From NCBI RefSeq assembly GCF_040546595.1, contig NZ_JBEPOB010000001.1, forward strand, positions 3,907,001 through 3,971,000: 64,000 bases of DNA, written 5' to 3'. Position numbers and translations under genes: made by a program. The DNA is from Bosea sp. OAE506 (GTDB taxonomy: Bacteria > Pseudomonadota > Alphaproteobacteria > Rhizobiales > Beijerinckiaceae). The notes beneath the pieces were generated by a model. It had not been told where the DNA came from, ran no database searches, and saw nothing but the letters and a program-made list of their open reading frames with translations. Positions 15,659 to 39,726 of the stretch are shown here, in pieces; position 1 is the stretch's first letter; each line of letters begins with the position of its first letter.

Positions 15659-16020
15659 TCAGGTGATTGTGTTGCCAAAGGGGTCGAGGATCTCGACCGA
15701 TGAGACGTGCTCAACGTCGCGCATGGAGCGCGACGCTTTGAACCGCTCGTAATCCGGACCGCTCGCTCTCAAGAGAGGCGATAACGGATCGCGCACGAGT
15801 GCTTCGCCCATAGGGTAGCCATAGAACAGGCGTCCGCCATTCTGCGTAGCGTCCGCGGCGAGGTCGATCCACGTTTGGACTAGGGCCTCGACATGGGCGC
15901 GCAGCGCCGCGTGCCCGCCGACCACCGGCATCGCACTCGCGCGACGCATCACCTCATCGGCGATAATGGGCTTCAGGTACGCGTAGTTTCCGACTGCTCG
16001 CGGCGGCGCTCTCTCCAGAG
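15659..16020 (-). pseudogene. drmA: C-terminal part of drmA in a shifted frame
   Basis: About 112 residues from roughly 15995 to the stop at 15659: 'AVGNYAYLKPIIADEVMRRA', 'GGRLFYGYP' and 'FKASRSMRDVEHVSSVEILD'. The ending 'F..p.SMRDVE' is typical for the C-terminus of DrmA and related DUF1998-associated helicases. It is out of frame with the main drmA reading. The whole drmA span (19112-15659) is one base too long for a single frame, consistent with one inserted base at about 15990-16020. The stop lies ten bases before the drmB ATG, as expected for intact operon spacing. Confidence 0.75.
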
Positions 16021-19624: not shown

Positions 19625-19631
19625 GGCCGCC

Positions 19632-20765: not shown

Positions 20766-20861
20766 CGCTCTATCCTCCACACCTGGACATTTATCTTGCG
20801 AAAGTCAGATTGCAAGATTATGTTGCGATCTCTTAACGAGCTGTGAATTGGAGTGTCCAAT

Positions 20862-21086
20862 ATGCCACAGGCGAAGCAGCCGGGCCTGAATGGTCGGCAC
20901 AGGAACGATGATGGGCAGGCGCGGGCCAAGCGCGGCGACACGCTGGTCGGGACGTTGCGCAAGACCTATGGCGAGGATTTCGCCGAGGGGCGGCGCAGCG
21001 ACATGCGCCTCGATACCCTCCTGAAGCGCGAGGGAGTGCCGTCGCTGAACGATCTGCTGGAAGGCAAGGGGAAGACCGGACAGTAG
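20862..21086 (+). CDS. small conserved hypothetical protein, opposed to the defence operon
   Basis: 74 residues from the ATG at 20862 (GGAG eight bases upstream; GTG 20853 possible). 'NGRHRNDDGQARAKRGDTLV' and 'GTLRKTYGEDFAEG' resemble short uncharacterised proteins found in many proteobacteria. No catalytic motif; basic N-terminus, helical C-terminus. It is transcribed in the opposite direction between the GIY-YIG gene and the XRE-ImmA gene, splitting the DISARM locus into two transcriptional halves. Confidence 0.65.
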   Translation: MPQAKQPGLNGRHRNDDGQARAKRGDTLVGTLRKTYGEDFAEGRRSDMRLDTLLKREGVPSLNDLLEGKGKTGQ

Positions 21087-21112
21087 GTTCCAGGCGGGCA
21101 GGCCGAGCGGTC

Positions 21113-21664
21113 TCACGAAGCATAGGCTTCGTGCAGCGCGGCTTGCCGCTCGACCGCCAAACGTTGCTCGCGTGAGAAGCGGAGCTCGTCGAGTGTCTCG
21201 TCGACAAGTTCGACCGGCTCGGCCATCGCAGTGAAATGCCGACGGCGGCCCCATGCGAGCATATCTTCGGAAGCGAGAGATTGGACGGCCGCTTCTAGGT
21301 TTCGCAGGTCGACCGGGAGAGCGTCGACAGGCAAGAACGACGCTCGACAGTGCCGTCGGATGAAAGTGTTTCGTAGCCGTTTCGCCAAACGCGCGTCGGC
21401 GCCGTCGTCCCTCTTTGCACGCCACATGCGCCCGACATTGTAGGCATGCGAGAACTTGTGGCTACGTCCCTCTGAACCAGCTGCATGCCGATTGTGGATG
21501 CGATCGAAGAACCCGCTTTGGGCGGACGAGGTGATGCCGATGTAGCGGATATCGCCACCATGGTCGTGGAGCGCGTATATGCCATGCTGGTTTGGCAGGA
21601 CGTCAAGCCTCGACGGTTCGATCATCGTCAAATGCCGAAGAACGGCTGCGGGAGAGAGCGTCAC
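21113..21664 (-). CDS. GIY-YIG nuclease-domain protein
   Basis: 183 residues from a GTG that overlaps the drmMI stop (GTGA), so translation is coupled. The motif 'HGIYALHDHGGDIRYIGITS' at about residues 27-46 is a clear GIY...YIG signature. A following Arg in 'FFDRIHNRH', near the family's catalytic Arg position, and Glu in 'RNLEAAVQSL' fit the fold. GIY-YIG enzymes are metal-dependent DNA nucleases found in homing endonucleases, some restriction enzymes and repair proteins. Coupling to the methyltransferase gene suggests a restriction-type role inside this DISARM locus; no GIY-YIG gene belongs to the standard set. Confidence 0.8.
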   Translation of the reverse strand: MTLSPAAVLRHLTMIEPSRLDVLPNQHGIYALHDHGGDIRYIGITSSAQSGFFDRIHNRHAAGSEGRSHKFSHAYNVGRMWRAKRDDGADARLAKRLRNTFIRRHCRASFLPVDALPVDLRNLEAAVQSLASEDMLAWGRRRHFTAMAEPVELVDETLDELRFSREQRLAVERQAALHEAYAS

Positions 21665-24600: not shown

Positions 24601-25698
24601 CGGATCGAAGAGATCGCCGCCGCGCCCCCGGATGAAGCCGTCGCCGCCGCCCCGATGTACGAGGCGGAACAGGACGAGGAGCCGCGCCCACGCGCCGCGC
24701 CGCTCTTCCATCGTGTCGGGGTAGCGCGCCAGGTCCGCGTTAAGCTTCGCGTGCAGGGCGCGCACGCCGTAGCCCTGATCGTAGAGTCGCCGCAACTCCT
24801 CGTCGGTCGCCGAAGGGATGAGGCCGCGATCCTCAGCATAGAGGAGGAAGACGAGCCTGAGCAGAACGGTGAGCAGGCCGCCATAGAGATGATCGGGCCT
24901 GTCGGCCGCGAGCTTGGCGACGCGGGCTTCGTCCGCCGCGTGCAGCCCGCGCAGAAGCTGATGCAGGGCGCCGAGAACCTGCTCGGCGAGCTTGGCAGAC
25001 ACCTCGGCCTGCGCGTCGCGGCTCTGCTTCAGGAGGCCCGGCAGGCGCCGCTCCGGCGGCTCATTGTGCAGGCGGAAGGCGTTTAGCGCGAGCTTCAGCC
25101 CCCCAAGCATCGGGCGGGCGGCGATCGTCGCCAGCGCCCGGATCGGCCAGGACAGCCAGCCGCTCGTCTCGCCCTTGGGCGCGTAGACGAGCCGGATCTG
25201 GTCATCGGTGACGAGCAGCCCGGCGCGCATGCCGATCTCGTTCTCGCGCAGCAGCCGCTCGAAGCGCTGGTGCGGGGTCGCCTCCCAGCCCGCGAGCGCG
25301 CCGCGCTTGTCGGGTTCGACGCCTGGCGCCTCGATGCGAACGAGCAAGGTCGGGCTGCCCTCGGGATCGATGACGCTCCAATGCGGCTCCAGAACCTCGT
25401 CCGCTTCGTCGATGGCCACAGATAGGCCGTCCGGCAGCGGCTTGGTTCCGGGTAAGCCCGCGACCTGATGGTTCCGCCAGCCCAACACCCGATGGAAGAA
25501 TGTCCAAGGGTCTGCCAGGGCTCGACGTTCGCCTTCCGGCGTCAGGCAGGCTGCTACGGCCTCGCCATCGGCCCGCGTCTGCTCCTCGGGCGGAAGATTG
25601 TAGCGGTCGAGAACGGCCGGGCTGAGGACCAGGCCGACGGGCTGGAGATAGCCGAGCCATTCGAGATGCGGGTCGCGATTGAGGTCTCCTTGGGCCAT
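21661..25698 (-). CDS. drmMI: DISARM N6-adenine DNA methyltransferase DrmMI (Eco57I-type)
   Basis: 1345 residues. The N-terminal half includes 'LRLVFLLYAEDRGLIP' and 'EQIGSVYE', typical of large Eco57I/PglX-like methyltransferases. SAM-binding motif I is 'VCDPAMGSGAFLVEACRQLA' at about residues 567-586, and catalytic motif IV 'IVGNPPFAG' at about 808-816 has the NPPF of N6-adenine enzymes. A target-recognition-like region follows, with an acidic Ala/Glu tail. In class 1 DISARM this enzyme marks host DNA so that it is spared. The start is one base after the drmD stop, and the GIY-YIG gene overlaps its end by four bases. Confidence 0.9.
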   Translation of the reverse strand: MAQGDLNRDPHLEWLGYLQPVGLVLSPAVLDRYNLPPEEQTRADGEAVAACLTPEGERRALADPWTFFHRVLGWRNHQVAGLPGTKPLPDGLSVAIDEADEVLEPHWSVIDPEGSPTLLVRIEAPGVEPDKRGALAGWEATPHQRFERLLRENEIGMRAGLLVTDDQIRLVYAPKGETSGWLSWPIRALATIAARPMLGGLKLALNAFRLHNEPPERRLPGLLKQSRDAQAEVSAKLAEQVLGALHQLLRGLHAADEARVAKLAADRPDHLYGGLLTVLLRLVFLLYAEDRGLIPSATDEELRRLYDQGYGVRALHAKLNADLARYPDTMEERRGAWARLLVLFRLVHRGGGDGFIRGRGGDLFDPTAYPFLMGQDEPTDPIRPATVSDGCILGVLDKLLVLGGERLSYRTLDVEQIGSVYETVMGFTVETAAGPALALRGGKNDKVPVFVDLAELAACKAAERQKRLKEVYDVKLPDRVAKVLAAARSLPEVEAALKPRVDERGSPGGTPSAPGSPLLQPTDERRHTGSHYTPRSLTEPIVRHALKPAFERLGPDAKPDEVLALKVCDPAMGSGAFLVEACRQLATRLVKAWARWPETRPTIPPDEDEDLHARRLVAQRCIYGVDKNPRAVELAKLSLWLATLARDHEFTFLDHALKCGDSLVGLDAKQIAAMHWDASKPGLPLFRKFVADRVAEATEARAEIQSAPDDMLRAVLEQKHRFVETKVADVRVLGDAVLSAFFAEDKPRAREKRRATVESWVAGDPVRWDELRAAAKSLRMDPYPLTPFHWPIEFPEVFSGANPGFDAIVGNPPFAGKNTTIAGNREHYLPWLQTLHEGAHGNADLVAHFFRRAFGLLLQGGAFGLIATNTIGQGDTRDTGLAAILGEGGAIIRAMRRLKWPGEAAVVVSVVHVAKRAPDASGVERLAVLDGRSVRRISAYLVAGDLDHAPARLAANARKAFQGSIVLGMGFTFDDAAAAKGEAESLETMRALIAKDPRNCERIFPFIGGEEVTTSPAHAHHRYVIDFADFPLKRDAALPSWFMNAGTEACEKRRRDWLREGVVPGDYPEPVANDWPDLLEIVKRRVKGKRGSHSTAHWWHFERRRGELYTAAAPLAQVMANSSKATPHHALAFLPRSLVYSQNLNVFAKEGFSTFAVLQSRLHEVWGRFVGTSFEDRLTYVKDDCFETFPFPPGFEAHVALEAAGQAYHDHRAALMIARNEGMTKAYNRFHDEGQRAADIERLRELHAEMDRAVLRAYGWDDLAERAAPVFLEKPADENGKGYRTGEPEDDHTYQGRLFWTSTFRDEVLARLLALNAERAAEERAMGLAPAAAAGDEGSDEDEAA

Positions 25699-25699
25699 G

Positions 25700-28600
25700 T
25701 CAGTTGCTTTTCGGCCAGAGGTGCATCAGCCCGACGATCTCCAGTCGGTCGGCGACGACGTCATAGCCGCGCCTCACGCGTTCCGGCTCGGCGGCGATGT
25801 CTCGGGCAAGGCGGTCGAACTTGGCCTGCCAGCGGCGGCGGTCGCGTCGTACCTGCTCGGCTTCGACCTGATCGAACTCGAGGCTAAGCTGCCGGTCGTC
25901 GAACGACGCCTCACGCTTGGCGATGCGGTCGCGTTGATCGACGAGGAGCTTGCGGAGCGCATCGGCCTCCTCCTCGCCGACCGCAACGAGCTCGCGGGCT
26001 ACCTCTTTCCGCCGGGCATCAGCGCGCCGCTTCAACTCCGGCTCCAGATCGGCAGCGTCGCGGAGTGCTGAGGTACGCAGGCGATCCACGGTGGGCGGAG
26101 GCGGCGTGCGATTGTCCCGCAAGGCTTGCTCCAGCTGGTCAAGCGTTGCTTCTTCGCCGCGCTCGCCGAACGGCCGCAGCGTTCCAGTCCGCCGATCCGG
26201 CTCATTCCAGGCGGCCGTGACCATCAGCAGCTCCTCGTGGAGCCGTGCCGCGCCGGCTCCGTATAGGGCGAGGCGGCCGATAAGGACGACGCGGGGCTGC
26301 GCGCCTGGACCGATGACGGCGCAAACCCGCTTGAGATCGCTCGTGAAGCCCTGACTAAGGAAACGCGACAGCAGGCGGCGCACGAGCCTGTGTTCGAGAT
26401 GGACTTGCACCACGTCGGGTGCGTCGACGCCGGTCCTTGGGTCGCGCGCCGGTTCAAAAGCGATGGCCTTCAGAGGCGCCGAGGCGCGCCACTCTTTCAG
26501 CCGCTCCTTTCGGCCTCGACGTCGCACGCGCAGGTCATCAAGGGCCTCTTGCCAGCCGCCATGGCCGAAGATCGGCGCAGCAGGATCGAGACGGAACAGC
26601 TCGGCACCACCGACTTTGCCGTCCTGCGATTCATCGAGCGAGCAGCCGGCCCGTGCGAGCGCAGCGGCGGTAACAGCCTTTAGGTCGGCGGTTTCGACGC
26701 CGACCTGCTTTCGCGAGTCCTCCAACAGCTTGCGCATGCGGTCGAGTTCGCGGGCCTCGCGCTGGATGCGTCGCTCCTCGCGGTCGTCCATCTCCTCGCG
26801 CGACTTCGCGACGCGAGGGTCCTTCTCCAGCGCCTCGATCTCGTCCGTCACGCGGACGTCCCGCAGGCCTCGGCGGGCGAGCAGGTCTGCAATGCGATCG
26901 GACAGGACCTGGCCAACCGAGCCGAGCTGGCGGTGGATCGTCTCGGTTTTCTCGACGAGGCGTTGCAGCACCCGATCTTCGGGACGCTGCCGATAGACGA
27001 AGTAGCGGCACCAAACTTCAGGCGAGGGCTGCAGCTTGCGGTCGATCCGGCCGTTACGCTGCTCCAGGCGGGCGGGATTCCAGGGCAGATCCATGTGGAT
27101 CAGGTCATGGCAACGGCTCTGGAGGTTGATGCCCTCACGAGCGGCATCGGTACAGATCAGAATGCGAAGAGGATCGGCCGCGGGATCGGAATTAAAGCGG
27201 CGCTTGAGCTCCTCGCGCCGATCCGTCGGCGTGGCGCCGGTGAAGCGGGCGACCCGATCCTCGGGTTCGAGATCGTGTAAGGCCTCGGTCAGCTTGCGTT
27301 CGAGCCAACGGCGCGTGTCTTCGTACTCCGTAAAGATGAGAAGACGACGCTCGTTCCATCGTCCGTCGGCGACCATGTGCGCCCGAACCCACTCGACCAA
27401 CTTCTTAATTCGGGCGTCCGGCCGGTTAGCGTGGACGCGGGCGATTTCCACCATCTCGTCGACGAGCGCGATGTCGCCTACGCCGGCGTCGATCATCTGC
27501 GCCGCGCGATCCTCTTCGGCGGCGATCCGGGCTTCGGCCTCCGCCTCGTCCTCTGGCTCGTCTTCGAGGATGACAGGCTCGATGAGAGACACGGCGGGAT
27601 ATATGGCCGGCCTGTCCTCGATCGCGCGTTCGAGGCGGGCGCGATGCTTCTCCAGTGTCCGCTTGAACGCGGCGATGGAAGACAGGAGGCGCTGCTGCAA
27701 CCCGACCATGAGAAGACGCGAGCGCGCGGCTGCGGCAGCGGGCAGGTCTTTGGTCCGCTGGGCGACAAGCGCGTCGTATGCGGCAAGCTTGTTGGACAAG
27801 ACGAGTTCCGGCGCGTCGGCTGGCAAGCCATCGATGATGACCGCCTCCACGCGTCTGGTGGGGAAGCGCTCGCCGAAACGCTTCAGATCAGATTTTAGGC
27901 GTCGCACCATAATTGGCGCTAGATCATCCGGCCTTACCTCGACCCCTGCGGTGAAGCGTTGTGGATCGAGGATCTCAAGAAGGCTTGTGAAGGAGTTCGA
28001 ATGGCCGTTGTGTGGCGTGGCAGAGAGGAATAGGCGATGCTCAAAGCGTTCCGCCAAGCCTCGGATCGCACGCGTGAACTGGCTATCGACAGCGTATCGA
28101 GAGCCCGACGCCGGCGCGGCGTGGTGAGCTTCGTCAAGGATCAGGAGCGATCGAGGTCGGAATTCGCCTAGGAGATCGCGTAGGCCAGCGGTGTAACCTT
28201 CATCCCCTATGAGGGAATGCGAGAGCAGGAACATAGATCCAGAGGCCCAAGGGTTTACGGCGAACCCACGTTCCCGCCGCACCGCAGCCAAGTAGTCTCG
28301 ATCAATGATGGTGAACGGAAGCCCGAATTTTGCTTGCAGTTCGTCCTGCCATTGACGGGTCATCGAAGGCGGTGCGGCGACAACGACGAAGTCGACTCGC
28401 CGGCGCAGCAGAAGTTCGCGCAATACCAGTCCGGCTTCGATGGTCTTTCCAGCGCCGACGTCGTCCGCGATGAGTAGGTTTACGCGCGGGAGGGCAAGCG
28501 CCTTCGCGAGCGGTACGAGTTGGTAGGCGTCGAGATGAATGCCCGCTCTGAAAGGGGCCTGGAACAGCTTGCGATCGGCCGCTGTAGCTGTACTCCACCG

Positions 28601-28864
28601 GATGGTCCGCAGATAGGCAGAGAAGACTGCAGGATCGTCAGTGCCAGCTTGATTGAGCGCAGACAGCTGTCCGGCATCGGTGATCTCGGCATCTATCTCT
28701 TCGCGCCAGATAACCTCTAGGCTCTCGCCCTGTGCATCATCGTCAATGCAGGCGAGGCGAGCGCGAGCAGGGGTCTTGTCGGCAATGACCTGCTCAACAA
28801 GCCACTGCCGACCTCGCAAGCTAACGAAAACTCCAGCAGTCGGGCCCACTGCGTCCAACTCCAT
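25700..28864 (-). CDS. drmD: DISARM SNF2-like helicase DrmD
   Basis: 1054 residues. Two RecA domains: Walker A 'DDVGAGKTIEAGLVLREL' at about 134-151, DEAH box 'LLILDEAHHAA' at about 240-250, 'LFLSATPHNGHSNSF' (motif III), 'LLIFTEYEDTRRWLERKL' and motif VI 'PWNPARLEQRNGRIDR'. These are SNF2/HepA-like features. The long C-terminal part is rich in charged coiled segments. In class 1 DISARM, drmD precedes drmMI, as here. It opens the operon; the ATG at 28864 has no strong ribosome site. It probably translocates on DNA to assist detection or processing of phage DNA. Confidence 0.9.
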   Translation of the reverse strand: MELDAVGPTAGVFVSLRGRQWLVEQVIADKTPARARLACIDDDAQGESLEVIWREEIDAEITDAGQLSALNQAGTDDPAVFSAYLRTIRWSTATAADRKLFQAPFRAGIHLDAYQLVPLAKALALPRVNLLIADDVGAGKTIEAGLVLRELLLRRRVDFVVVAAPPSMTRQWQDELQAKFGLPFTIIDRDYLAAVRRERGFAVNPWASGSMFLLSHSLIGDEGYTAGLRDLLGEFRPRSLLILDEAHHAAPASGSRYAVDSQFTRAIRGLAERFEHRLFLSATPHNGHSNSFTSLLEILDPQRFTAGVEVRPDDLAPIMVRRLKSDLKRFGERFPTRRVEAVIIDGLPADAPELVLSNKLAAYDALVAQRTKDLPAAAAARSRLLMVGLQQRLLSSIAAFKRTLEKHRARLERAIEDRPAIYPAVSLIEPVILEDEPEDEAEAEARIAAEEDRAAQMIDAGVGDIALVDEMVEIARVHANRPDARIKKLVEWVRAHMVADGRWNERRLLIFTEYEDTRRWLERKLTEALHDLEPEDRVARFTGATPTDRREELKRRFNSDPAADPLRILICTDAAREGINLQSRCHDLIHMDLPWNPARLEQRNGRIDRKLQPSPEVWCRYFVYRQRPEDRVLQRLVEKTETIHRQLGSVGQVLSDRIADLLARRGLRDVRVTDEIEALEKDPRVAKSREEMDDREERRIQREARELDRMRKLLEDSRKQVGVETADLKAVTAAALARAGCSLDESQDGKVGGAELFRLDPAAPIFGHGGWQEALDDLRVRRRGRKERLKEWRASAPLKAIAFEPARDPRTGVDAPDVVQVHLEHRLVRRLLSRFLSQGFTSDLKRVCAVIGPGAQPRVVLIGRLALYGAGAARLHEELLMVTAAWNEPDRRTGTLRPFGERGEEATLDQLEQALRDNRTPPPPTVDRLRTSALRDAADLEPELKRRADARRKEVARELVAVGEEEADALRKLLVDQRDRIAKREASFDDRQLSLEFDQVEAEQVRRDRRRWQAKFDRLARDIAAEPERVRRGYDVVADRLEIVGLMHLWPKSN

Positions 28865-29381: not shown

Positions 29382-29840
29382 ATGACGAAGGTGAACAACA
29401 GCGGCGAAACCGCCCGGGATGAGGCCCGCCCCAGTGAGGCGGATCTGAGCAAGTATGAACGCAACTACCGCCTGACCACCGACCGGGTCGAGCGGTTCTA
29501 CGTGCTCTGGCGGCAGGCGATGGCCCACGCCTTGCTCCTCGAGCAGCAGGGTGATCGGACTTATCCCGAGCATGGCGGCCTGACCGCCCTGCAGCTCGCC
29601 GAAGGTGCGCGAGCTCACGCCCGTTTCTTCGCGTTCTTGCTGGCGGAAGCCCCCGCGCAGACCAAGGTGCATCTCGAGGCCAAAGTCTCGATCTACGCCG
29701 ACATGGCCTCGGACCCTGACGAGATCCGCCGCTCGCGCACCGCCCGGATGGTGGGGGCTGCCATGCAGCAAGACGCGGGCGATCTGGGCATCACCCTGCC
29801 CGGCGTCCCGCTCGCGCCTGGCAGCGAGAGCTGGCACTGA
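29382..29840 (+). CDS. hypothetical helical protein, first gene of the exonuclease/AAA cluster
   Basis: 152 residues, unknown family. A polar N-terminus is followed by 'SKYERNYRLTTDRVERFYVL' and 'AEGARAHARFFAFLLAEAP', mostly amphipathic helix, and a Pro/Gly-containing tail. No membrane segment or catalytic motif. It ends 11 bp before the exonuclease I-like gene, in the same direction, so the two are almost certainly co-transcribed. Possibly a partner or inhibitor of the nuclease, by position only. Confidence 0.7.
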   Translation: MTKVNNSGETARDEARPSEADLSKYERNYRLTTDRVERFYVLWRQAMAHALLLEQQGDRTYPEHGGLTALQLAEGARAHARFFAFLLAEAPAQTKVHLEAKVSIYADMASDPDEIRRSRTARMVGAAMQQDAGDLGITLPGVPLAPGSESWH

Positions 29841-29851
29841 AGGTCGCCGCC

Positions 29852-31258
29852 ATGAGCTTCATCTTCATGGATTTCGAGGCTAGCGGTCTTGAGCCGGCGT
29901 GGGATGTGCCGCTGCAGGCTGCCTATATCGAGACCGACAGCGACCTTCGCCCTGTGCAAGAGACTGTCTTGCGGGCGCGCTTGCCCGCCTATGTCGTACC
30001 TTCACCTGACGCCTTGCTCGTCACCGGCCTCGACTCTGACAGTATCGAGGCCGCGCCGCTTTCGCAGCTCGAGATGATGCGAGCCATCGCCGGCATCCTC
30101 GCCGCGGCATCACCGGCCACGATTCTGGGCTACAGCAACCTAAAGTACGATGATGAGCTCCAACGCCACAGCGCCTTTCGGACGTTGCACCCGCCTTACG
30201 CCACCTCGATGCCGGGCTTCGCGCGCGCCGATGTGCTGATCATGCTGCGGGCGGTGGCGATGCTGGCGCCCGGCGCCATCACCATCCCGGTGACGCCCCA
30301 TGGCAAGCCGACGATGCGGCTGGGGCCGGTCTGCCGCGCGAACGGCATCGCCTTAGACGAAGCGGACGCCCATGATGCGCTGAATGACGTCCATGCCACG
30401 ATCGCGCTCTTCAGGCTCCTGCGCGAACGCGCGCCCACCATCATCGCGGCGATGATGGCCAATGCCCATAAGAGCGGACCAGCGGGAATGCTGGCGCGCC
30501 CCGAAGCGCTCGGGCTCGGTCTGTTCAACCGCATGATACCGGCAGGCGGCATCATGCCTACGCCAGGGAACGCGTCGTCCTGGGCCGTCGCCGATCTGAC
30601 CGTCGACCCGACTTATCTCGATGCCACGCCGGAGCAACTTGGCGAAATGCTTTTCGCCAGGGGCGAGCGCCCGATCCGGCTGGTCAAGACCAATGCCCAG
30701 CCGATCTTGTTGCCGTGGGAGATGACGGCACCTGTCTTACAAGGAGAGGTCCCGCCGGATGGCGAGTTGCAGGCCCGTCTGGCCCGGATCCGGGGCCATG
30801 CCAGCTTCCGCGACAACCTCGCGATCGCACTGGCCGGGCGCTTCGCCGACAAGACACCGAGCCCGTGGCCGGATGATAGCCTCTACAGTGGCGGCTTCAT
30901 CAGCCGCGAGGACGCGATCACCTCGCGACGCTGGCATGAGGTCGCATGGGACCAGCGGGTGCGGCTCGGCCGCGAGCTTCTCGGCGACGTCCGGCTGAAA
31001 GCCTTCGCCAATCGCTGGGCCTGGCTCGAAGCGCCGGAGGAGTTCTCCGCCGCAGAGCGCGAGAAAGGAGCGGCCTGGTTCGCGCTACGTCTCGATACCC
31101 AGGACGACGTGCCATGGCTCACACGCCCCATCGCCCTGCAGCGCATCGCCGCGCTTAAGGCCGAGACCGGCGCGGGCAACGATGCCCGGGTCCGTCAGCT
31201 CGACTCGATCGAATGCTGGATTGCCGGGCGCGGCCGGACATTGTCGCGCACCGCCTGA
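29852..31258 (+). CDS. exonuclease I-like DEDDh nuclease (SbcB family)
   Basis: 468 residues, close to the ~475 of E. coli SbcB. The DEDDh motifs are visible: 'FIFMDFEASGLEP' (D and E of Exo I), an Asp-containing 'YSNLKYDDELQRH' (Exo II; SbcB has 'GYNNVRFDDE') and 'DAHDALNDVHATIALFRLL' (Exo III, H then D). The C-terminal half follows SbcB order ('DEALLFRYRAR'-type region replaced by 'RADKTPSPWPDD...LYSGGF'). SbcB degrades single-stranded DNA 3' to 5'. Its position in an island next to a Lon-like ATPase, rather than a repair locus, suggests a specialised role. Confidence 0.85.
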   Translation: MSFIFMDFEASGLEPAWDVPLQAAYIETDSDLRPVQETVLRARLPAYVVPSPDALLVTGLDSDSIEAAPLSQLEMMRAIAGILAAASPATILGYSNLKYDDELQRHSAFRTLHPPYATSMPGFARADVLIMLRAVAMLAPGAITIPVTPHGKPTMRLGPVCRANGIALDEADAHDALNDVHATIALFRLLRERAPTIIAAMMANAHKSGPAGMLARPEALGLGLFNRMIPAGGIMPTPGNASSWAVADLTVDPTYLDATPEQLGEMLFARGERPIRLVKTNAQPILLPWEMTAPVLQGEVPPDGELQARLARIRGHASFRDNLAIALAGRFADKTPSPWPDDSLYSGGFISREDAITSRRWHEVAWDQRVRLGRELLGDVRLKAFANRWAWLEAPEEFSAAEREKGAAWFALRLDTQDDVPWLTRPIALQRIAALKAETGAGNDARVRQLDSIECWIAGRGRTLSRTA

Positions 31259-31288
31259 ACCAAAACACCGTGGCCGATATCAGGAAGG

Positions 31289-31306
31289 GCGCCCCGCATG
31301 GGGCGC
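31289..31306 (+). terminator. intergenic hairpin in the exonuclease/AAA cluster
   Basis: Perfect 7-bp stem gcgcccc/ggggcgc with loop gcat, followed by tttcgtc. It lies between the exonuclease stop and the next gene. The loop and the trailing tttcgtc recur in the hairpin at 34606-34630. Lacking a long T-run, it may be a weak terminator or an RNA-processing/stability element. Confidence 0.55.
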
Positions 31307-31377
31307 TTTCGTCGATTCCAGGAGGACCGAGGTGAAGCGCAGCCGATGGGGCTGTCACCCACAGGATTCAAAAGACC

Positions 31378-32379
31378 ATGACGAACAATAACCAGGATCG
31401 CGACCTCACGCCCGTGACGACGGATCACCAAGGCGGCGGCGACCGGCCGCTCGGGCCGATCCGTGACCCGCTCGCCGAGCCGACCCGCTGCATCGGTAAC
31501 GATCCCTCGCTCGCCGAGTTGATCGCGGTGCGCGACCATGCGCCCGACCTCAAGGTCGTCGCGCGCGAGGCGAAGCGCTGCAACGACGAAGCGGACCGAC
31601 TGCCGCTTGGCCTCGAACGGACCTACGAGGAGCGGATGGCAGAGGTTGGCCTGCAGATCGTCGGCTTGAGCTGCGCGGCCATCGTCGCGATCTGGCCAAC
31701 CGACACGCTTGAGGACGCCGATGCGAAGCGAGCGCTCGCCCGCGAGACGCAGCCACACTACGAAGACACCGACTTCGCGATGGCTCCGCTGCTCTCGATC
31801 GAGGACGCAGCCCGCATCAGGCTCCACCGCGCCGCCTTCGACGTCGGTGCGCTCGTCGTGCCCCCAGGCCCTCCCGGACCGGTGCCCTCCGACAGGGGTC
31901 TCGCGACCTGGCCGCTGTCGCGGTTCGATCTCGTCGACGCGGTGCCTCTCGCCGGCGGTCCACCTAGCCTGGATGCGCGCAGCATCGCCCGGTGGAAGGC
32001 CTTTGTCGACGCCTATCCCGACCTAACCGCGCTGGTCGACCGCTTCAGCGCGATGATCGCGATCGCCGATCGCCTCACGGTGATGGCCGATCACAACGAG
32101 CCCGACAGCGCGGCGATGCGCCGGGCTGCCGAGGGCGCTCGCATCCTCGCCTACCTCGCCGCGGCCCGGGCCGCGATCTGGCCCTCGATGCTGCACTCGG
32201 CCGACGCGCAGGCCAAGCTCAGGCTGGTGGCGCTGATCAACGACCGCGCCTGCCGGCATGATCCTTTGCACATGCAAGCCGCCATCCGGCATCTGGTCAG
32301 CGAGGCGAACTTCATAGCCCGGCGGTTCCGATTCGGGGCAACGCTCGAGCTTAATCCGCAGTGGCTCCCGATTGTGTAA
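31378..32379 (+). CDS. uncharacterised helical protein, paralogue 1 of the cluster
   Basis: 333 residues, no known domain. It is a clear paralogue of the next gene: both have 'DPSLAELIAVR/DPSVAELVAFR', then 'VGLQIVGLSCAAIVAIWPTD', 'RGLATWPLSRFDLVDA', 'GGPPSLD', 'AEGARILAYLAAARAAIWPS' and a closing 'HDPLHMQAAIRHLVSEA'. The two genes therefore arose by duplication and may form a hetero-oligomer. No signal peptide; predicted cytoplasmic. Function unknown. Confidence 0.75.
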   Translation: MTNNNQDRDLTPVTTDHQGGGDRPLGPIRDPLAEPTRCIGNDPSLAELIAVRDHAPDLKVVAREAKRCNDEADRLPLGLERTYEERMAEVGLQIVGLSCAAIVAIWPTDTLEDADAKRALARETQPHYEDTDFAMAPLLSIEDAARIRLHRAAFDVGALVVPPGPPGPVPSDRGLATWPLSRFDLVDAVPLAGGPPSLDARSIARWKAFVDAYPDLTALVDRFSAMIAIADRLTVMADHNEPDSAAMRRAAEGARILAYLAAARAAIWPSMLHSADAQAKLRLVALINDRACRHDPLHMQAAIRHLVSEANFIARRFRFGATLELNPQWLPIV

Positions 32380-32407
32380 CGGAATCGCCGGAGAGAGAGG
32401 ACATGGC

Positions 32408-32433
32408 GATGGCGTCCTTGCGGGGACGCCATC
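32408..32433 (+). terminator. intergenic hairpin before paralogue 2
   Basis: Perfect 10-bp stem gatggcgtcc/ggacgccatc, loop ttgcgg. It lies between paralogue 1 and the ATG of paralogue 2. No T-run follows, so it is more likely an RNA structure affecting processing or translation than a terminator. Confidence 0.45.
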
Positions 32434-32498
32434 TGCGATTCTCAGGGGCGGAGGAAGACATGCGGCCAGATGGTCGCGACCCCATAGGAAAGTTCAAA

Positions 32499-33500
32499 AT
32501 GACCAGGAAGACTGAGGATGGCGGGCGCTCGCTCGCCAAGCGCGGCGCAGGCCCCGTGGAGGAGCCCGCCAACCGGGCGCTGCGCGATCCGATCGCGATG
32601 GCGGTCGAGATCATCAACGGCGATGACCCGAGCGTCGCGGAGCTGGTGGCGTTCCGGCGCCAGCCGATCGACCTGAAGGCGGCGGCGCGCAACGCCAAAA
32701 GCCTGTCGAACGAGGAGTTCCGGCTCAGCCTCTCGAAGGAACTCGGCGAACGCGAGTACGACCTAGCCTGCGCCGGGCTTCAGATCATGAGCCTTAGCCT
32801 GGTCGCGCTGACCGCCATCTGGCCAAGCGACGACCTGGACCAGGCCGAGGCCAAGCTCGCCCTCGCCGAGGCGACCGGCGCCCTGCACCATCGCCGCGAC
32901 CAGAGCTTTGTCTCGACGATGGACGCGACGCTGGCGCGCCGCTTGCGCTGGAAGCGGACTGCCTTCAGCGTGCCGGCGCTCATGTTGCCTCCAGCGCAAA
33001 CGGCGCCAGAGAGCGACAGCCGCAGGCTGGCCACCTGGCCGCTTGAGCGCTGGGAACTCTCCGCCGGCCTGGAGCTGCGCGGCGGTCCGCCAGCCTTCGC
33101 GCATCGGGAGATCGCCAACTGGGTCGGCTACGCGAGCGCCGCCCCCGATCTCGACGTCCTCCTGCAGCGCGCCCAGACAATGTTCGAAACCTGCGACCGC
33201 CTGATCGCGCTGGCCCAGCGTGGTCCGGAGAACGCGAGCGAACTGATGGTCGCGGCCGAAGGCGCCCGCATCGCCGGCAACCTGGCAGCAGCGCAGGTCA
33301 TGATCTGGCCGGTGCACAACCGCGCCGCGCTGGCGACCAAGAAGGAGGTCGTCGCGCTGATCAATCTGCGCGGTGAGATCGGCGATCCCGCGCACATGTT
33401 GGCGGCGATCCGGCACGTCACGGCCGACGCCGCCTGGGTCAAATCGCTGCCGCCAGACGCGCGAGACAAACTAAAGTTCGACTTTAGCGAACTTGTCTAA
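32499..33500 (+). CDS. uncharacterised helical protein, paralogue 2 of the cluster
   Basis: 333 residues from the ATG at 32499 (AGGAAAG about ten bases upstream); the frame is open further upstream, but the duplicated similarity to the previous gene begins only after this start. Shared blocks are listed there: 'DPSVAELVAFRRQPIDLKAA', 'LSLVALTAIWPSDDL', 'LATWPLERWELSAGLELRGG' and 'AAEGARIAGNLAAAQVMIWP'. Both paralogues have exactly 333 residues. No domain recognised. Confidence 0.75.
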   Translation: MTRKTEDGGRSLAKRGAGPVEEPANRALRDPIAMAVEIINGDDPSVAELVAFRRQPIDLKAAARNAKSLSNEEFRLSLSKELGEREYDLACAGLQIMSLSLVALTAIWPSDDLDQAEAKLALAEATGALHHRRDQSFVSTMDATLARRLRWKRTAFSVPALMLPPAQTAPESDSRRLATWPLERWELSAGLELRGGPPAFAHREIANWVGYASAAPDLDVLLQRAQTMFETCDRLIALAQRGPENASELMVAAEGARIAGNLAAAQVMIWPVHNRAALATKKEVVALINLRGEIGDPAHMLAAIRHVTADAAWVKSLPPDARDKLKFDFSELV

Positions 33501-33526
33501 CTACCTATCAATGCACAATAACAAGG

Positions 33527-33558
33527 AAGGCAGTTCCGAGCCCGGCGCTGCCTTTTTT
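33527..33558 (+). terminator. intrinsic terminator after paralogue 2
   Basis: aaggcag at 33527-33533 pairs with ctgcctt, followed by a T6 run ending at 33558; the loop is GC-rich. This is the most terminator-like hairpin of the cluster and lies 70 bp before the next start, so the downstream genes may depend on read-through or their own promoter. Confidence 0.7.
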
Positions 33559-33628
33559 GATATCCGGAGAAGAAGGAACAGCGACTGCCTGGAGCAGATC
33601 ACCCCCATGGAAAACTGAAAGACGACCA

Positions 33629-34573
33629 ATGAACACGACCAGCGCCCGCAGCGACCTCAGCCGCATCGTCCTCGACCCCACGCCGCATCAGATCACCGAC
33701 GATCTCTTCGCCCTCGACGCGCGGCTCTCGCAGGCGGATACCGATGTCGGGGCGCTGGCAGACTGGCGCGCCAATCTGCCCGACCTGCTGCCGATCCGAG
33801 GCCGTGCTCAGGCCAATGCCGACGAGGTCCGCCGGCTGATCAAGGGTCTCGCCCGAGAGCCCGAGCTGGCCGATGACTGGATCGACGTCGCCAACGCGCT
33901 GACGGTCCTCGTCAACGCCTCGAACCTCTCGCTCCTGCTTCTGCCGCCTCGCAGCATTGACGATGCCTGGGCCAGCCGAAACTTCGGCTTCCATCTGCTG
34001 CAGCACACGCAGCGTCATGGCGATGGCGAAGAACTCGCCTTGGCGCGGCGCGCCACCAGCGCCGTCGTCCCCGAACCCGGTGATCAGGCGCTTCCGACCG
34101 ACACGGCCGGCATCCGCGATATGATCGAGACGATGGCGCGCCGGGCGAGCGCCCTGCAGCCGAAGCCGCTCACCGCGACGCCTTACGGCACGCCTGCCGT
34201 GCATCCGCTGGAACACGCCGAGAGCCTCAAGGCCTTCTTCGCGCCGCCGCAGGATCTGATGCGCCTCTTCGACGGCGCCAACAAGCTGCTGCACGCCAGT
34301 GAAGGCTTCTCCGCGAGCGGGTTGCCCGCCAGGGTCATCGAGGATGCGACCGACGGCGCCATCATCCTCAGCTACGCACGCCTGCTGCGCGTCGCGCTCT
34401 GGCCCGCCCGCAATGAGAGGGATGTCGAGGCAAAGATCGCGGCCCGCGATCTCGTGCGGGCTCGAGCGGCCGACCCCGAGCGGCTCGGGGCGCTCTTCGA
34501 GATCGCACTCGGCCAGGGGGAGATGGTGGCCGGCCAGTCGAGCCGGTTCCTGAACATTGACGCGGTCGGCTGA
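33629..34573 (+). CDS. uncharacterised helical protein, third (divergent) relative
   Basis: 314 residues from the ATG at 33629. No named domain. It shares the general plan of the two genes before it, most clearly near the C-terminus: 'AIILSYARLLRVALWPARNE', followed by an acidic/Ala-rich helix and 'ARDLVRARAADPERLGALFE', comparable to 'AAARAAIWPS...ALINDRACRHDPLHM' in paralogue 1. Overall similarity is much weaker, so homology is probable but not certain. Confidence 0.7.
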   Translation: MNTTSARSDLSRIVLDPTPHQITDDLFALDARLSQADTDVGALADWRANLPDLLPIRGRAQANADEVRRLIKGLAREPELADDWIDVANALTVLVNASNLSLLLLPPRSIDDAWASRNFGFHLLQHTQRHGDGEELALARRATSAVVPEPGDQALPTDTAGIRDMIETMARRASALQPKPLTATPYGTPAVHPLEHAESLKAFFAPPQDLMRLFDGANKLLHASEGFSASGLPARVIEDATDGAIILSYARLLRVALWPARNERDVEAKIAARDLVRARAADPERLGALFEIALGQGEMVAGQSSRFLNIDAVG

Positions 34574-34605
34574 CGGCCTCTCTCCGATCCGGACCTGAGT
34601 GATGG

Positions 34606-34630
34606 AAGGCGCGCCCGCATGGCGCGCCTT
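34606..34630 (+). terminator. intergenic hairpin before the AAA+ gene
   Basis: Perfect 10-bp stem aaggcgcgcc/ggcgcgcctt, loop cgcat, followed by tcgtc. Very similar in loop and tail to the hairpin at 31289-31306, suggesting a repeated regulatory element of this cluster. Confidence 0.6.
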
Positions 34631-34691
34631 TCGTCATGACGAAGCAGGTCCGTGAAGGGGCGGACAGGCCGACCCCAGGGACCGACCCGAC

Positions 34692-35942
34692 ATGGACAAT
34701 ATGAGCGACGACCAAAGGCTCGACAGAGCCCGGAAGGCAAGGAAGACCTCAACTCGCAAACGCCCAACCGGGCGGACGCCTCGCAACAGCCCATATAGCG
34801 GCATCGATTTCGGAGACGCGACCGCGCCCGCGAAATCGGCGCCGGCCGTGGGGCTCGAAACTGAGCAGACATCTCTCTTCGTCCGCGAACCGAATGAGGT
34901 CGACGCTCCAATCATCACGATCTTCGATCAGGCGGCCGTCCTGCGACAGCTAAGGCTGGCCGCCGCAGCCGACGACACCTTCGGCGAATACGATATCCAG
35001 GTCACACCAGCTGCATCCAGCGACGAGCAGGCCCGGATCGACCGCCTTCGGGCCTTGGCCAGCCAACATAGCCAAAGGCCGCTGGTCGTGGGCGACGTCG
35101 TCATGATCAACCGTATCCGCCAGTTGCGGATCGAATGCCCTGGTTTCGGCAGCGTCGCGGCAATCATCGAACGGGCTGCAGCGCTATCGACGGCCACCGG
35201 CACCGGTCTTGGCTTCCCTGCAATTCTCCTTGTCGGACCGCCCGGCCTCGGAAAGACGCATTTCGGGCGACGCCTCGCAACGGCGCTCAATAGCGAGACG
35301 CACGCCTTTAGCTGCGCGACGAATTCCGATGCTCAGGCTCTGCTTGTCGGTCATCCGCCGACCTGGCGAGGTTCGCGGATGGGCGTCCTCACCGAGGCGC
35401 TGCTCGGCGGTGAAACAGGCAATCCCCTGATCATCCTCGACGAAGTGGACAAGTTCGTGACCCATTCGAGCGAGAAGCCGTTTCACTCCCTTCTGACCCT
35501 CTTGGAGCCGGAGAATGCGTCGAGCTTGCTCGACGAGTACCTCAGGGTTGAGTTCGACCTCTCGCGTTGCCTGATCATCGCGACGGCCAATGACATCCAT
35601 GCGCTCCCGACGTTCATTCTGGACCGATTTCTCGTCGTCGAGATCGCCATGCCTGACGGAGAAGCGCTGCGGGACATCGCGCGGCGCATCGCGGCCGACA
35701 TGATCGCCGGCTACCGGCATATGTTCGCTCCGGTCAGCGAGCCCGTCATCGAGCGGCTGGCGCGGACAAATCCGCGCGGTATCCGTCGGCTCGTCGGCCT
35801 CGCGCTCGGCTACGCCGCTGACCAGGGACGTCGCTACCTGGAGGTAAGCGACGTCACTGCCGCGGAGGCCTGCATGGATTTCGCCGCAACGTCCCGGCCA
35901 ATCGGCTTTCTCGGTGGACGTAGTCGCCACTCCCTCGACTGA
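34692..35942 (+). CDS. AAA+ ATPase, Lon-like, without protease domain
   Basis: 416 residues. The central AAA+ module has Walker A 'ILLVGPPGLGKTHFGRRLA' at about 178-196, Walker B 'NPLIILDEVDKF' at about 244-255 and sensor 1 'CLIIATANDIHALP'; 'NPRGIRRLVGLALGYA' is in the sensor 2 lid. The order and the wording 'LDEVDK' and 'LL.LLEPEN...DEYL.VEFDLS' are those of Lon protease, but the protein ends after the lid with no Ser-Lys protease domain. It may act as a remodelling motor for the cluster's other proteins. Residues 1-130 are variable. Confidence 0.85.
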   Translation: MDNMSDDQRLDRARKARKTSTRKRPTGRTPRNSPYSGIDFGDATAPAKSAPAVGLETEQTSLFVREPNEVDAPIITIFDQAAVLRQLRLAAAADDTFGEYDIQVTPAASSDEQARIDRLRALASQHSQRPLVVGDVVMINRIRQLRIECPGFGSVAAIIERAAALSTATGTGLGFPAILLVGPPGLGKTHFGRRLATALNSETHAFSCATNSDAQALLVGHPPTWRGSRMGVLTEALLGGETGNPLIILDEVDKFVTHSSEKPFHSLLTLLEPENASSLLDEYLRVEFDLSRCLIIATANDIHALPTFILDRFLVVEIAMPDGEALRDIARRIAADMIAGYRHMFAPVSEPVIERLARTNPRGIRRLVGLALGYAADQGRRYLEVSDVTAAEACMDFAATSRPIGFLGGRSRHSLD

Positions 35943-35988
35943 CCCGCTGCCATCCCCCAACCCGTGATCCCGAACCACCAGAACCGCT

Positions 35989-36807
35989 ATGACCCAAACC
36001 GCTGTCACCTCGTCCGCTCTCACGCGCCGGCCACTGTCGCCCCGACGTCTCAAGGACCTTTTCTCGCCCGCGGCAGTGGGCGAATGGGCGCCGACCCAAT
36101 GGCCTGAAATCGGCGGGGCCTCCCTCAGCCTGGAACCTGACGAGCGGTTTGAGGGCCAAGCCTTCCGGCAGCTCTATCGGCCGGGGGAAAGGATCGCCGT
36201 CTATATTCCGGGTTGCGCGGGCCTGCGCGTCGCTGTCGGTCAGGCACTACACATCGGCGCCTGGAAGATCTCGACCTCCCAGATCGAGGCTCGTGGCCTC
36301 GAACCGCGCTTGAAAGCGCTCGGGCGAGACCGCTACGCCTCTTGCTACCGACGGGATGGCGAGATCGTCCAGGACAAGGGGTTCGACGAATGGGTTCTGT
36401 CGACGCTGCCTGATGGTCTGAAAATATCGCCGAATGCGCCAATCGTCCTGCACGGGCGCGGCATCGAGGTGATCTTGCCGCATGACCTCGATGCGGTCGT
36501 CTTCGACCGATCGCTTCGGCAAGCGCTCGCCGACGCCGAACTCGGCAGTTGGGCCTCTTCCCCGGACGGCCTCGCACACTGCGCGTGGTTTGGCCTGTCG
36601 CCCTCGCGCTTCCGGCGCCTGACGCGCTACGACATGTGCGGTTCCACCCGGCTGTCGCTGGCCGAGGAGGTTTACCTCTTCAAGCCGCACCTGCAGGCGC
36701 AACGCCTCGTGCGCGTCGTGGAGAACGTCATCCTCGCGCACGTGATGCCCGGCATATTTTCAGGGGCAAACCTGATTTCGAAGGCCCAGCGTCAGGCTGG
36801 AACCTGA
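35989..36807 (+). CDS. hypothetical protein, last gene of the exonuclease/AAA cluster
   Basis: 272 residues, unknown. It contains a basic, Pro-rich N-terminus, a beta-rich middle ('ERIAVYIPGCAGLRVAVGQA', 'APIVLHGRGIEVILPHDLDA') and a C-terminal helical part. The Cys in 'CGSTRLS' and 'AHCAWFG' are not arranged as a known metal site. It follows the AAA+ gene by 46 bp in the same direction. Possibly an adaptor or effector of the ATPase, by position only. Confidence 0.7.
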   Translation: MTQTAVTSSALTRRPLSPRRLKDLFSPAAVGEWAPTQWPEIGGASLSLEPDERFEGQAFRQLYRPGERIAVYIPGCAGLRVAVGQALHIGAWKISTSQIEARGLEPRLKALGRDRYASCYRRDGEIVQDKGFDEWVLSTLPDGLKISPNAPIVLHGRGIEVILPHDLDAVVFDRSLRQALADAELGSWASSPDGLAHCAWFGLSPSRFRRLTRYDMCGSTRLSLAEEVYLFKPHLQAQRLVRVVENVILAHVMPGIFSGANLISKAQRQAGT

Positions 36808-37670: not shown

Positions 37671-39533
37671 TTACTTGAAATGCGGATACTCAATCGACTG
37701 AACCGCCTCATTCAATGAGGCGAGATCAAACCCTGAGCCATAACCGCTCGTCGTGTCACCGAGATGGTGTCCCAAGACGGCCTGGGCAACGGGGTACGTG
37801 GCCCGCTTGCGAAGCTCATCGACGGCCCTATGCCGGAAGCTGTGAAACGTTTTGTCTCGATCTGTCGTCACGAACTCCCGCGCGTAGCGGCCCCACCATT
37901 TGCTGAAATAGTGGGTGGTCTTGCCCTCATACTCACGCAACTCCGGGAACAGCCGCAGCACGCTGCACTTCTTTTGTCCCTCGGCGTAGGAGAGCAGCCC
38001 CATCCCGATCAGCACCCGGTGGATCGGCACCCGCCGGCGCGATGACTTGGTTTTGCGGCTCGTGCTTTGTCCGGGTGTGTCGTCGATCTCTCGCATATCA
38101 AAGTAGGCGATGCCATTTTCGCTCTTGATGTCGACCAACCGGAGCTGGCCGATTTCCTCCAGGCGTGCACCAGAAAACAGGCTGATCAGCGGAAGCCACT
38201 TCTGAGCCTCGCCACCGCCCGCATCATAGCGTTGGCCATCGGCGTAAACAGGGGACGCCAGAAGCCTTTCCAAGTCGCCATCGCCATAGGGCTTGCGGGT
38301 CGAGACCTCGCCCTCCTTGAGAGCGAACTTCATCCCCTCACAGGGATTGGTCTCGATCTCTCCGTTGCGCACAGCCACGGCCAAAACAGCGGAGATGGCA
38401 CCAATCGCCTTGTCGTTGATGGTTGCACGCGACAGAACCGGCTGGCTTTCTGACGCAGCCCAGCTGTGGAGTTCCCAGAAGGGTCGCCCGGCCATGTCTT
38501 TCGGAATCTGTCGGGGACATCCGGTCAGCGCATCGCGATATGCACGGACATGCTTCTTCGAGATCACTGAGAGCGGGATATCGCCGTTGATGTCGATGAA
38601 TCGATCGACGTAGAGCCGATAAGCCTCCGCCGTGCGGGCCGACGGCTTCCGCTCCGTTTTCCAAGTTTGGTAGGCCTCGACCAACCTCAAACCCGGCTCT
38701 GCTTCCATGACAACCGGCGGCGGCGCTCGCGGCGGGGTCGGCAAAGCATCCCCATTCATTCGATCGAGCACGGCCTGGTGGCCCCTGATGCCGGCGCGTA
38801 TGACTTCGAGAGCCAGAAGCCTGCGGTCCGGGTGACCATGCGGCAGATCGACGCCTATCTCAGCGAGAACGGCTTCGACCGCGCTTTCTCCGATCACGGC
38901 TGCGAGGTCGTTCCTGACAGAGCGTGCTTGATCGATCGGCAGTCCTTCTCTGGTCAGGCTCTCCAGCGATGGCACTTTCCTGGCGCCGTCGAAGTCGTAT
39001 GTGTCGACCTGACGGACATGCGCCTTCAGATGGTCTAACTCGCGCAGATGGGCTTCCCGCTTCGCGGCGTGGAGGCTGACAGGTTCATCACCCGCTGCCA
39101 TATCGCCGTAGACGATTTCGGTCAGGTCAGATGGGCGGTCCTGCAGAGTCTCCTCGTCATCCGAGGCCAGGATTCGATAATAGACGTCATCCGCTAGTTG
39201 TCGGATCGTCTCCTGGGACAGAGCCTGAAGGCGTGTGGCAGCAGGCGGACGCCCGCGCTTGCGTGAAAACGTTGCCTTCGCGAAATCAATCAGGCGCTCG
39301 ACCTGAGGATGGACTTCAAGCCACCGCTGGCGCGCGAGCGACAGGTCGCTGGTTGCCAAGGAGACCTTGATCACGGGCCGGCCACCCAACTTGCGCCGCT
39401 CGGTCGACCACGAGAGCTGCAGATCTCCCGAAACCGATTTAGCCAGTCCGTTGGCCAGGTGGCGAACATAGCTGAAGCCCCCTTCCGGGCGCTTCACCAA
39501 ATAGATCATGCCTGAGGTTGAAGACCGTCCCAT
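37671..39533 (-). CDS. site-specific tyrosine recombinase (island integrase)
   Basis: 620 residues from the ATG at 39533 (AGGG five to six bases upstream; GTG 39551 and ATG 39509 are alternatives). Long N-terminal arm and core-binding region ('QTWKTERKPSARTAEAYRLY') are followed by the catalytic domain: Arg in 'LFSGARLEEIGQLRL', His/Arg in 'FHSFRHRAVDELRK', and 'VLGHHLGDTTSGYGSG' with the second His and Tyr nucleophile. All catalytic residues appear present. It lies 120 bp from the 3' end of tRNA-Glu, so it probably inserts the island there. Three 12-bp direct repeats upstream may be its arm-binding sites. Confidence 0.9.
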   Translation of the reverse strand: MGRSSTSGMIYLVKRPEGGFSYVRHLANGLAKSVSGDLQLSWSTERRKLGGRPVIKVSLATSDLSLARQRWLEVHPQVERLIDFAKATFSRKRGRPPAATRLQALSQETIRQLADDVYYRILASDDEETLQDRPSDLTEIVYGDMAAGDEPVSLHAAKREAHLRELDHLKAHVRQVDTYDFDGARKVPSLESLTREGLPIDQARSVRNDLAAVIGESAVEAVLAEIGVDLPHGHPDRRLLALEVIRAGIRGHQAVLDRMNGDALPTPPRAPPPVVMEAEPGLRLVEAYQTWKTERKPSARTAEAYRLYVDRFIDINGDIPLSVISKKHVRAYRDALTGCPRQIPKDMAGRPFWELHSWAASESQPVLSRATINDKAIGAISAVLAVAVRNGEIETNPCEGMKFALKEGEVSTRKPYGDGDLERLLASPVYADGQRYDAGGGEAQKWLPLISLFSGARLEEIGQLRLVDIKSENGIAYFDMREIDDTPGQSTSRKTKSSRRRVPIHRVLIGMGLLSYAEGQKKCSVLRLFPELREYEGKTTHYFSKWWGRYAREFVTTDRDKTFHSFRHRAVDELRKRATYPVAQAVLGHHLGDTTSGYGSGFDLASLNEAVQSIEYPHFK

Positions 39534-39552
39534 CAGCGCCCTGCTCGGCACT

Positions 39553-39588: not shown

Positions 39589-39651
39589 AGCCGCCCGAGC
39601 CCTAGTTTCTATCAATGATTTTGTTGAGAATCAACAACTTAGCCACATGAG

Positions 39652-39726
39652 TGGCGCGACCTACGGGAGTCGAACCCGTCTCCCCAGCGTGAAAGGCTGG
39701 TGTCCTAACCGATAGACGAAGGTCGC
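39652..39726 (-). tRNA. tRNA-Glu (anticodon TTC)
   Basis: 75 bases read right to left. Acceptor gcgacct/aggtcgc, D-arm with ggtta, anticodon arm ccagc-ctttcac-gctgg (anticodon TTC), T-arm acggg-ttcgact-cccgt, discriminator G and an encoded CCA end (39654-39652). All stems pair. The 3' end points to the integrase, marking an insertion site. Confidence 0.95.

Follow-up and report, generated by a model that had tools for sequence, protein, structure and literature searches.

A seven-gene exonuclease and Lon-like ATPase module linked to mobile elements in Bosea and other genera

Exonuclease I (ExoI, SbcB) and exonuclease VII (ExoVII, XseA/XseB) are single-strand exonucleases, and the fold of ExoVII differs from that of SbcB-like, RNase_T-type and PolB-type exonucleases. 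Slx1 is a GIY-YIG nuclease. In the Hachiman system (HamAB), a nuclease is reported to be governed by a partner driven by nucleoside triphosphate (NTP) (PMC12278908). Here we describe a module of seven genes (g1 to g7) in a stretch of 64,000 nucleotides from Bosea sp. OAE506, referred to below as the window. The module encodes an ExoI-like exonuclease (g2), three related proteins (g3, g4 and g5), a Lon-like AAA+ ATPase (g6, also called AAA) and two further proteins (g1 and g7). Gene order in Bosea-type loci and linkage of AAA to g7 across genera make it a well-supported prediction that the seven genes work together.

A conserved seven-gene module in Bosea

A first-pass annotation, made from the letters of the window alone, reported seven tightly spaced genes on the plus strand. 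All seven open reading frames (ORFs) are present at 29382..36807, and the gaps between them measure 11, 119, 119, 128, 118 and 46 nt from g1 to g7 (g5 counted from its ATG). The module is laid out as follows.

29382..29840, plus strand: g1, 152 amino acids (aa), familyless; opens the module
29852..31258, plus strand: g2, 468 aa, ExoI/SbcB-like DEDDh exonuclease
31259..31377, plus strand: gap g2-g3, 119 nt, GC-rich hairpin with a stem of 10
31378..32379, plus strand: g3, 333 aa, all-helical paralogue, familyless
32380..32498, plus strand: gap g3-g4, 119 nt, GC-rich hairpin with a stem of 11
32499..33500, plus strand: g4, 333 aa from the ATG at 32499, paralogue of g3
33501..33628, plus strand: gap g4-g5, 128 nt, hairpin stem with one mismatch, longest unbroken stem 8
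33629..34573, plus strand: g5, 314 aa from the ATG at 33629 or 338 aa from a TTG at 33557, distant third paralogue
34574..34691, plus strand: gap g5-g6, 118 nt, hairpin with a stem of 17, fold z-score -4.84
34692..35942, plus strand: g6, 416 aa, Lon-like AAA+ ATPase, protease domain absent; Walker A GPPGLGKT, Walker B LIILDE
35989..36807, plus strand: g7, 272 aa, second hallmark gene; alpha/beta protein that may contain a divergent GIY-YIG (T5orf172-like) domain

The longest ORF of g4 begins at 32361, and the ATG at 32499 was taken as its start. When the window was compared with the copy of the module in Bosea sp. TND4EK4 (L007), the proportion of nonsynonymous changes (pN) was well below that of synonymous changes (pS) in all seven genes. 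That all seven are real genes under purifying selection, and more than chance ORFs, follows from this low pN and from the recurrence of the gene order.

Recurrence of the order was scored in 15 distinct Bosea-type loci (the window, L006, L007, L040, L043-L047, L049 and L051-L055), after L050 and L048 had been dropped as lying on the same contigs as L006 and L007 respectively. The order g1, exonuclease, paralogues, AAA, g7 is kept in 14 of the 15, the second copy in the window genome included. The sole exception is L045, in which g1 and the exonuclease are missing and g3 is broken. Variation within the order was seen among the paralogues: a g4-type gene precedes the g3-type gene in L051-L053, and their number is three in the window and four in L040 and in L043 (phmmer cluster). 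L055 carries two modules in tandem. At the same point between paralogues, L044 (12299-15676) and L047 (9169-12323) have three ORFs on the opposite strand. Of 67 genomes of the genus, 26 gave a relative of g3, in one case only a marginal one (E 9.5e-4); in a sample of 199 genomes from the order the window genome itself was the only one with a match. Nine relatives had an organism name, eight being Bosea and one a metagenome-assembled genome labelled Stutzerimonas.

The second copy of the module in the window genome runs from about C1:84237 down to 75765, and the only two matches to g2 in that genome are those in its two module copies. Between the copies, g3 and g4 are 91-92% identical, whereas the exonucleases share 51%, the AAA proteins 52% and the g7 proteins 34% identity. 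The subunits therefore have separate histories.

The individual proteins largely match their first description. No Pfam family matches g1 at E <= 1; its homologue stands ahead of the exonuclease in L156 of another genus and, among the 15 Bosea-type loci, in 14. The assignment of g2 as an SbcB-like DEDDh exonuclease agrees with its match to Pfam PF08411 (Exonuc_X-T_C; E 2.9e-11, 43.4 bits, cut-off 27) and to ExoI chains in the Protein Data Bank (PDB), the best being 4rg8 (E 9.1e-37); its score against Pfam RNase_T, 17.6 bits, is under the cut-off of 24. Residues D7/E9, D100-D101 and H174/D179, which we take to be the DEDDh motifs, are present, and the HDA..D motif is kept in 14 of 14 exonucleases. 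Against the NCBIfam ExoI equivalog g2 scored 165.2 bits, below the cut-off of 260. By these profiles g2 is ExoI-like, and its equivalog score falls short of marking it as an ExoI orthologue.

The genes g3 and g4, described as clear paralogues of equal length, encode 333 aa each and are 43% identical over 290 aa (E 9e-61). Structure prediction had been suggested for the paralogues, and the AlphaFold2 model of g3 (mean pLDDT 82.5) is all-helical with 11 helices; g3 had no PDB match at E <= 0.001. It also matches g5-type genes of other loci (E 5e-5 to 2e-7), and g3, g4 and g5 can be aligned. Judged by alignment, g5 is a distant third relative of g3 and g4, and either of its possible lengths is compatible with the earlier wording of a third probable relative.

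That g6 is a Lon-type AAA+ protein without the protease was likewise upheld. It aligns with the AAA+ part of Lon, the best rows of the PDB search covering residues 138-331, and its matches to Lon chains stop between residues 318 and 358 of 416; no Pfam protease domain was found. Walker motifs are kept in 15 of 15 AAA proteins. Among PADLOC models g6 gave weak matches to eight, the best being TRIP13 (1.7e-7). The window copy of g7 has no Pfam family at E <= 1. Two of 24 g7 members matched Pfam T5orf172, at 17.7 bits (L100) and 16.5 bits (L099) with a cut-off of 20. This family is listed for 0 of 51 closer relatives, and a GIY-YIG chain was absent from the seven rows returned when the g7 profile was run against PDB sequences. 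The sequence case for g7 as a GIY-YIG relative is weak. As g1, g3, g4 and g5 are familyless in the libraries scanned and g7 has only sub-threshold hints, their structures may be new.

The four window gaps from exonuclease to AAA are of near-equal length (118-128 nt), and a GC-rich hairpin, mismatched in one case, is present in each. A wider count took in all Bosea-type loci except L045 and L055, 13 in total. Inside their modules, 60 gaps of 60-180 nt lie between same-strand genes, and 50 of these had a stem of at least 10 pairs. Stems of this length were found in 13 of 1200 dinucleotide shuffles and, in 14 control regions, in 11 of the 59 gaps between same-strand genes. The module hairpins begin 23-108 nt (median 30) past the stop codon. 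The 50 hairpins comprise 47 different sequences, their arms having changed between loci; the hairpin structure therefore outlasts its letters. Between AAA and g7, where the listed loci have gaps of 43-86 nt, stems did not exceed 5. The hairpins escaped a terminator scan that required a T run; they could be attenuators or processing sites setting subunit ratios. Folds of the window gaps also show another small stem, closer to the start codon of the following gene.

The AAA-g7 pair and its exonucleases in other genera

We surveyed 298 genomes of a family that is probably GTDB Beijerinckiaceae, judging by the names of the relatives. The g7 profile matched in 27 of them, in 10 of 43 genera, and the AAA profile (E <= 1e-45) in 31. 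Both were found in 21 genomes, g7 only in 6, AAA only in 10 and neither in 261 (Fisher p 1.2e-19; the count used 49 of 50 g7 rows, one overlapping fragment having been removed). The two genes also remain close together: g7 lies within 6 kb of 32 of 51 AAA hits, and AAA within 6 kb of 34 of 49 g7 hits. A wider g7 profile placed g7 near AAA in five formerly unpaired loci (L144, L147, L148, L153 and L158). Some genomes hold several copies, with five AAA hits each in G250 and G386. Beyond the family the genes are rare, g7 being found in 2 and AAA in 3 of 385 genomes of the class, the window genome counted in. On a Variovorax plasmid (L003, 7241-8329), an annotated GIY-YIG nuclease gene lies about 1.5 kb upstream of an AAA relative with 35% identity.

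Exonucleases of several kinds were found near AAA or g7 in other genera. SbcB-like genes are present in L092, L104, L140, L141 and L156, and at about 7 kb in L142. XseA together with a small XseB-like gene (ExoVII) occurs in L097, L098, L101, L102, L151 and L152, and a PolB-type exonuclease in L096 and, in fragmentary form where the contig ends, in L145. Exonucleases of RNase_T type were found in L087, L139, L153 and L154. An exonuclease lies within 8 kb of AAA or g7 in 16 of 40 other-genus loci and in 0 of 40 control regions (p 5e-6). Relaxases were found near AAA or g7 in 9 of the 40 loci (controls 0 of 40), and recombinases also in 9 (controls 1 of 40). These counts leave out each locus's own query; with own queries they become 18 for exonucleases, 13 for recombinases and 10 for relaxases, and the queries were themselves drawn from such loci. 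Within 8 kb of AAA or g7 in the 15 Bosea-type loci, the corresponding numbers are 14 exonucleases, 8 recombinases and 0 relaxases. The exonuclease is one interchangeable part of the module and not its hallmark. The tie to mobility genes had been overlooked in the first-pass annotation.

Mobile elements and the possible role of the module

The window module lies at the integrase end of an integrative element at a tRNA gene, with the integrase and one copy of the direct repeat of the tRNA end inside the window.

37671..39551, minus strand: the element's tyrosine integrase, in convergent orientation to the module; sub-threshold match to Pfam Phage_integrase (1.2e-4; 22.4 bits, cut-off 27.1)
39652-39726, minus strand: tRNA-Glu gene, its 3′ end overlapping the 30-bp repeat
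39642-39671, no strand assigned: 30-bp direct repeat bounding a 91.8-kb element, other copy at genome C1:3854878-3854907

With the second copy of the 30-bp repeat 91.8 kb leftward, the element takes up the first 39.67 kb of the window. Within it the module stands between DISARM genes and the tyrosine integrase beside tRNA-Glu. The DISARM genes were identified with PADLOC as DrmD (25700-28864), DrmMI (21661-25698) and DrmA (15954-19112), the whole spanning 15954-28864 and ending 0.5 kb left of the module. Beside them an ORF of 170 aa (21113-21625) reads by eye as GIY-YIG-like. By eye, too, the left half of the element resembles metabolic cargo.

An integrase is also found between the module and a tRNA gene in the Bosea-type loci L006, L007, L040, L045 and L055, and tRNA, integrase-like gene and module are adjacent in L093, L104, L146 and L149 of other genera, the integrases of L104 and L146 having been identified by eye and through matches among our own queries. 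Elsewhere the neighbour is a relaxase. Relaxase genes lie beside g7-AAA, all in one direction, in L096, L099, L100, L144, L147 and L158. They belong to PF03432 with NikA (L099, with homologues in L100 and L144) and to MobA/MobL (L147, with a homologue in L158); that of L096 is of a diverged type and had no Pfam match. AAA without g7 lies beside a PF03432 relaxase in L140, with a homologue in L141. By eye the genes upstream of g1 vary between loci; some resemble relaxase genes, as judged by a sub-threshold PF03432 match in L046, by phmmer in L049 and L051 and by eye in L053. Recombinase-like genes were found near g7 genes that lack AAA in L088 (8e-7) and, below the Pfam cut-off, in L086 and L089. 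In L091 (8980-10640) two tandem g7 genes lie near an ORF of 826 aa with both RepB- and RepC-type (plasmid) domains. In L095 (7720-11104) a lone g7 lies between inverted ORFs that look by eye like transposases and share their first 60 residues, as in a composite transposon.

The first-pass annotation had proposed that the genes work together in defence. Of this, a single system is supported, and defence is not demonstrated. It had also named, as outcomes that would speak against its proposal, a lack of conserved order or homologues that are all parts of a known plasmid maintenance or conjugation module. The result lies halfway: the order is conserved, and many relatives lie beside integrases, recombinases and relaxases. 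We know of no maintenance or conjugation module of this composition.

We suggest tentatively that the module may be an ATP-driven nuclease complex of mobile elements acting in conflict with rival elements or phages, a reading that is plausible and just short of probable. It would be a multi-subunit machine that integrative and mobilizable elements often carry at the end with the integrase or relaxase, and its proteins would form one complex. The protease-less Lon-type AAA+ ring with g7 might recognise or remodel a DNA intermediate, the helical paralogues would be adaptors, and the ring would pass single strands to the exonuclease, with single-stranded DNA as the substrate. Possible targets are elements or phages with a single-stranded stage, such as an incoming conjugative strand, or rolling-circle or replicating phage DNA. 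A conflict role is favoured because the effector is swapped and the subunits are shuffled as in other conflict systems. A more specific version is unlikely in its full detail: here the AAA+/g7 core, with g7 as a diverged GIY-YIG nickase, would cut competitors' DNA and feed single strands to whichever exonuclease had been recruited (ExoI, ExoVII, PolB-type or RNase_T-type), and duplicated helical adaptors would set specificity, so that elements exclude one another.

Several points weigh against a conflict complex of this kind. The co-occurrence test is biased, as the AAA profile was built from loci found with g7. Each gene also occurs alone: no g7 was detected with the AAA of L140 and L141, among others, and L086, L088, L089 and L091 are examples of g7 without AAA. 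The 40 control regions of 20 kb each were taken at regular steps in five genomes and hand-placed away from known module copies, and near-copies among the 40 loci (L097, L098, L151 and L152 in one genome; L099 and L100; L101 and L102) make the p-values too small. In 22 of the 40 no exonuclease was found within 8 kb, some of these loci being at contig ends and some having room (L093, L099 and L147). The first exonuclease motif was observed in at least 8 of 14 copies, and the nuclease nature of g7 rests on weak matches. The relaxase neighbours suit the element's own transfer as well as they suit conflict. Finally, searches of the window genome for relaxases of PF03432 and of the L046 type, the only relaxase families looked for there, and for VirB4 were negative, and the element therefore looks non-conjugative.

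The module might instead act on the element's own DNA, serving its excision, mobilization or establishment, for example where a relaxase or integrase has acted and left a nicked single strand to be trimmed or recombined. This is possible but doubtful. The co-directional position of g7-AAA beside relaxases of more than one family points to it, as do the integrases adjoining the module at the tRNA end in the window, the five other Bosea-type loci and other genera, and the single-strand specificity of ExoI and ExoVII. However, exchange of nuclease families and apparent absence of the nuclease from some loci would be unusual for a housekeeping step, the same gene pair has neighbours of varied kinds, namely integrases, relaxases and other recombinases, and the window's 91.8-kb element is without a relaxase of the two types searched.

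A third and weaker reading, which we consider quite unlikely, is host-level defence against phages that rides on islands like the adjoining DISARM genes. Their position 0.5 kb away would fit, as would the patchy distribution of g3 relatives in the genus and the several AAA copies in G250 and G386, but PADLOC holds no model for g1, g3, g4, g5 or g7, the recurring neighbours are mobility genes, and the genes upstream of g1 change from locus to locus. A system like those of defence-associated reverse transcriptases (DRT), in which g2 would be a reverse transcriptase (RT)-associated SbcB clearing toxic complementary DNA, is suggested by the best PADLOC profile of g2 (RTasSbcB, E 1.3e-61) and by the precedent of E. 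coli ExoI neutralising otherwise toxic DRT9 products (PMC12483538), and is refuted for the window genome, bar an enzyme that Pfam RVT_1 misses, since RVT_1 found no reverse transcriptase there and the same search was positive in 3 of 14 control genomes.

If a conflict complex is indeed what the module encodes, one bacterial family possesses, in association with mobile elements, a standard ATPase-nuclease machine of its own, in which the nuclease is exchangeable and the adaptors are tandem duplicates. Two questions could then be put to the test: by what means islands that lack recognisable conjugation genes move or persist, and in what way incoming elements are blocked by those already resident.

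Comparison with known systems

The earlier statement that no named system has this composition held up. The combination is unnamed in Pfam, PADLOC (PADLOC-DB 2023) and PHROGs scans of all seven proteins and in an NCBIfam scan of g1, g2 and g6, and PADLOC-DB 2023 has 0 families for g1, g3, g4, g5 and g7. A literature search, with most subscription journals outside its coverage, returned no named system of this composition.

Likeness to known systems was found at the level of single components. The exonuclease g2 resembles E. coli ExoI (SbcB), and relatives of the module carry XseA with XseB, as in ExoVII; the difference is that here the nuclease is an exchangeable gene of a module. RT-associated SbcB (PADLOC RTasSbcB) is similar to g2 by profile, but the genome of the window lacks an RVT_1 reverse transcriptase. 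Lon protease (LonA) resembles g6 in its ATPase part, to which the AAA+ core of g6 can be aligned; g6 differs in its size of 416 aa with no protease domain found. From the GIY-YIG nucleases T5orf172 and Slx1, g7 differs in that its closer relatives gave no T5orf172 match. Hachiman is alike in combining a nuclease with an NTP-driven partner (PMC12278908). Hachiman has a helicase, whereas the module described here has an AAA+ protein, an exchangeable exonuclease, helical paralogues and g7, and its other subunits have no PADLOC model. The combination is undescribed in the sources searched, and the module belongs with the nuclease-ATPase modules of mobile elements.

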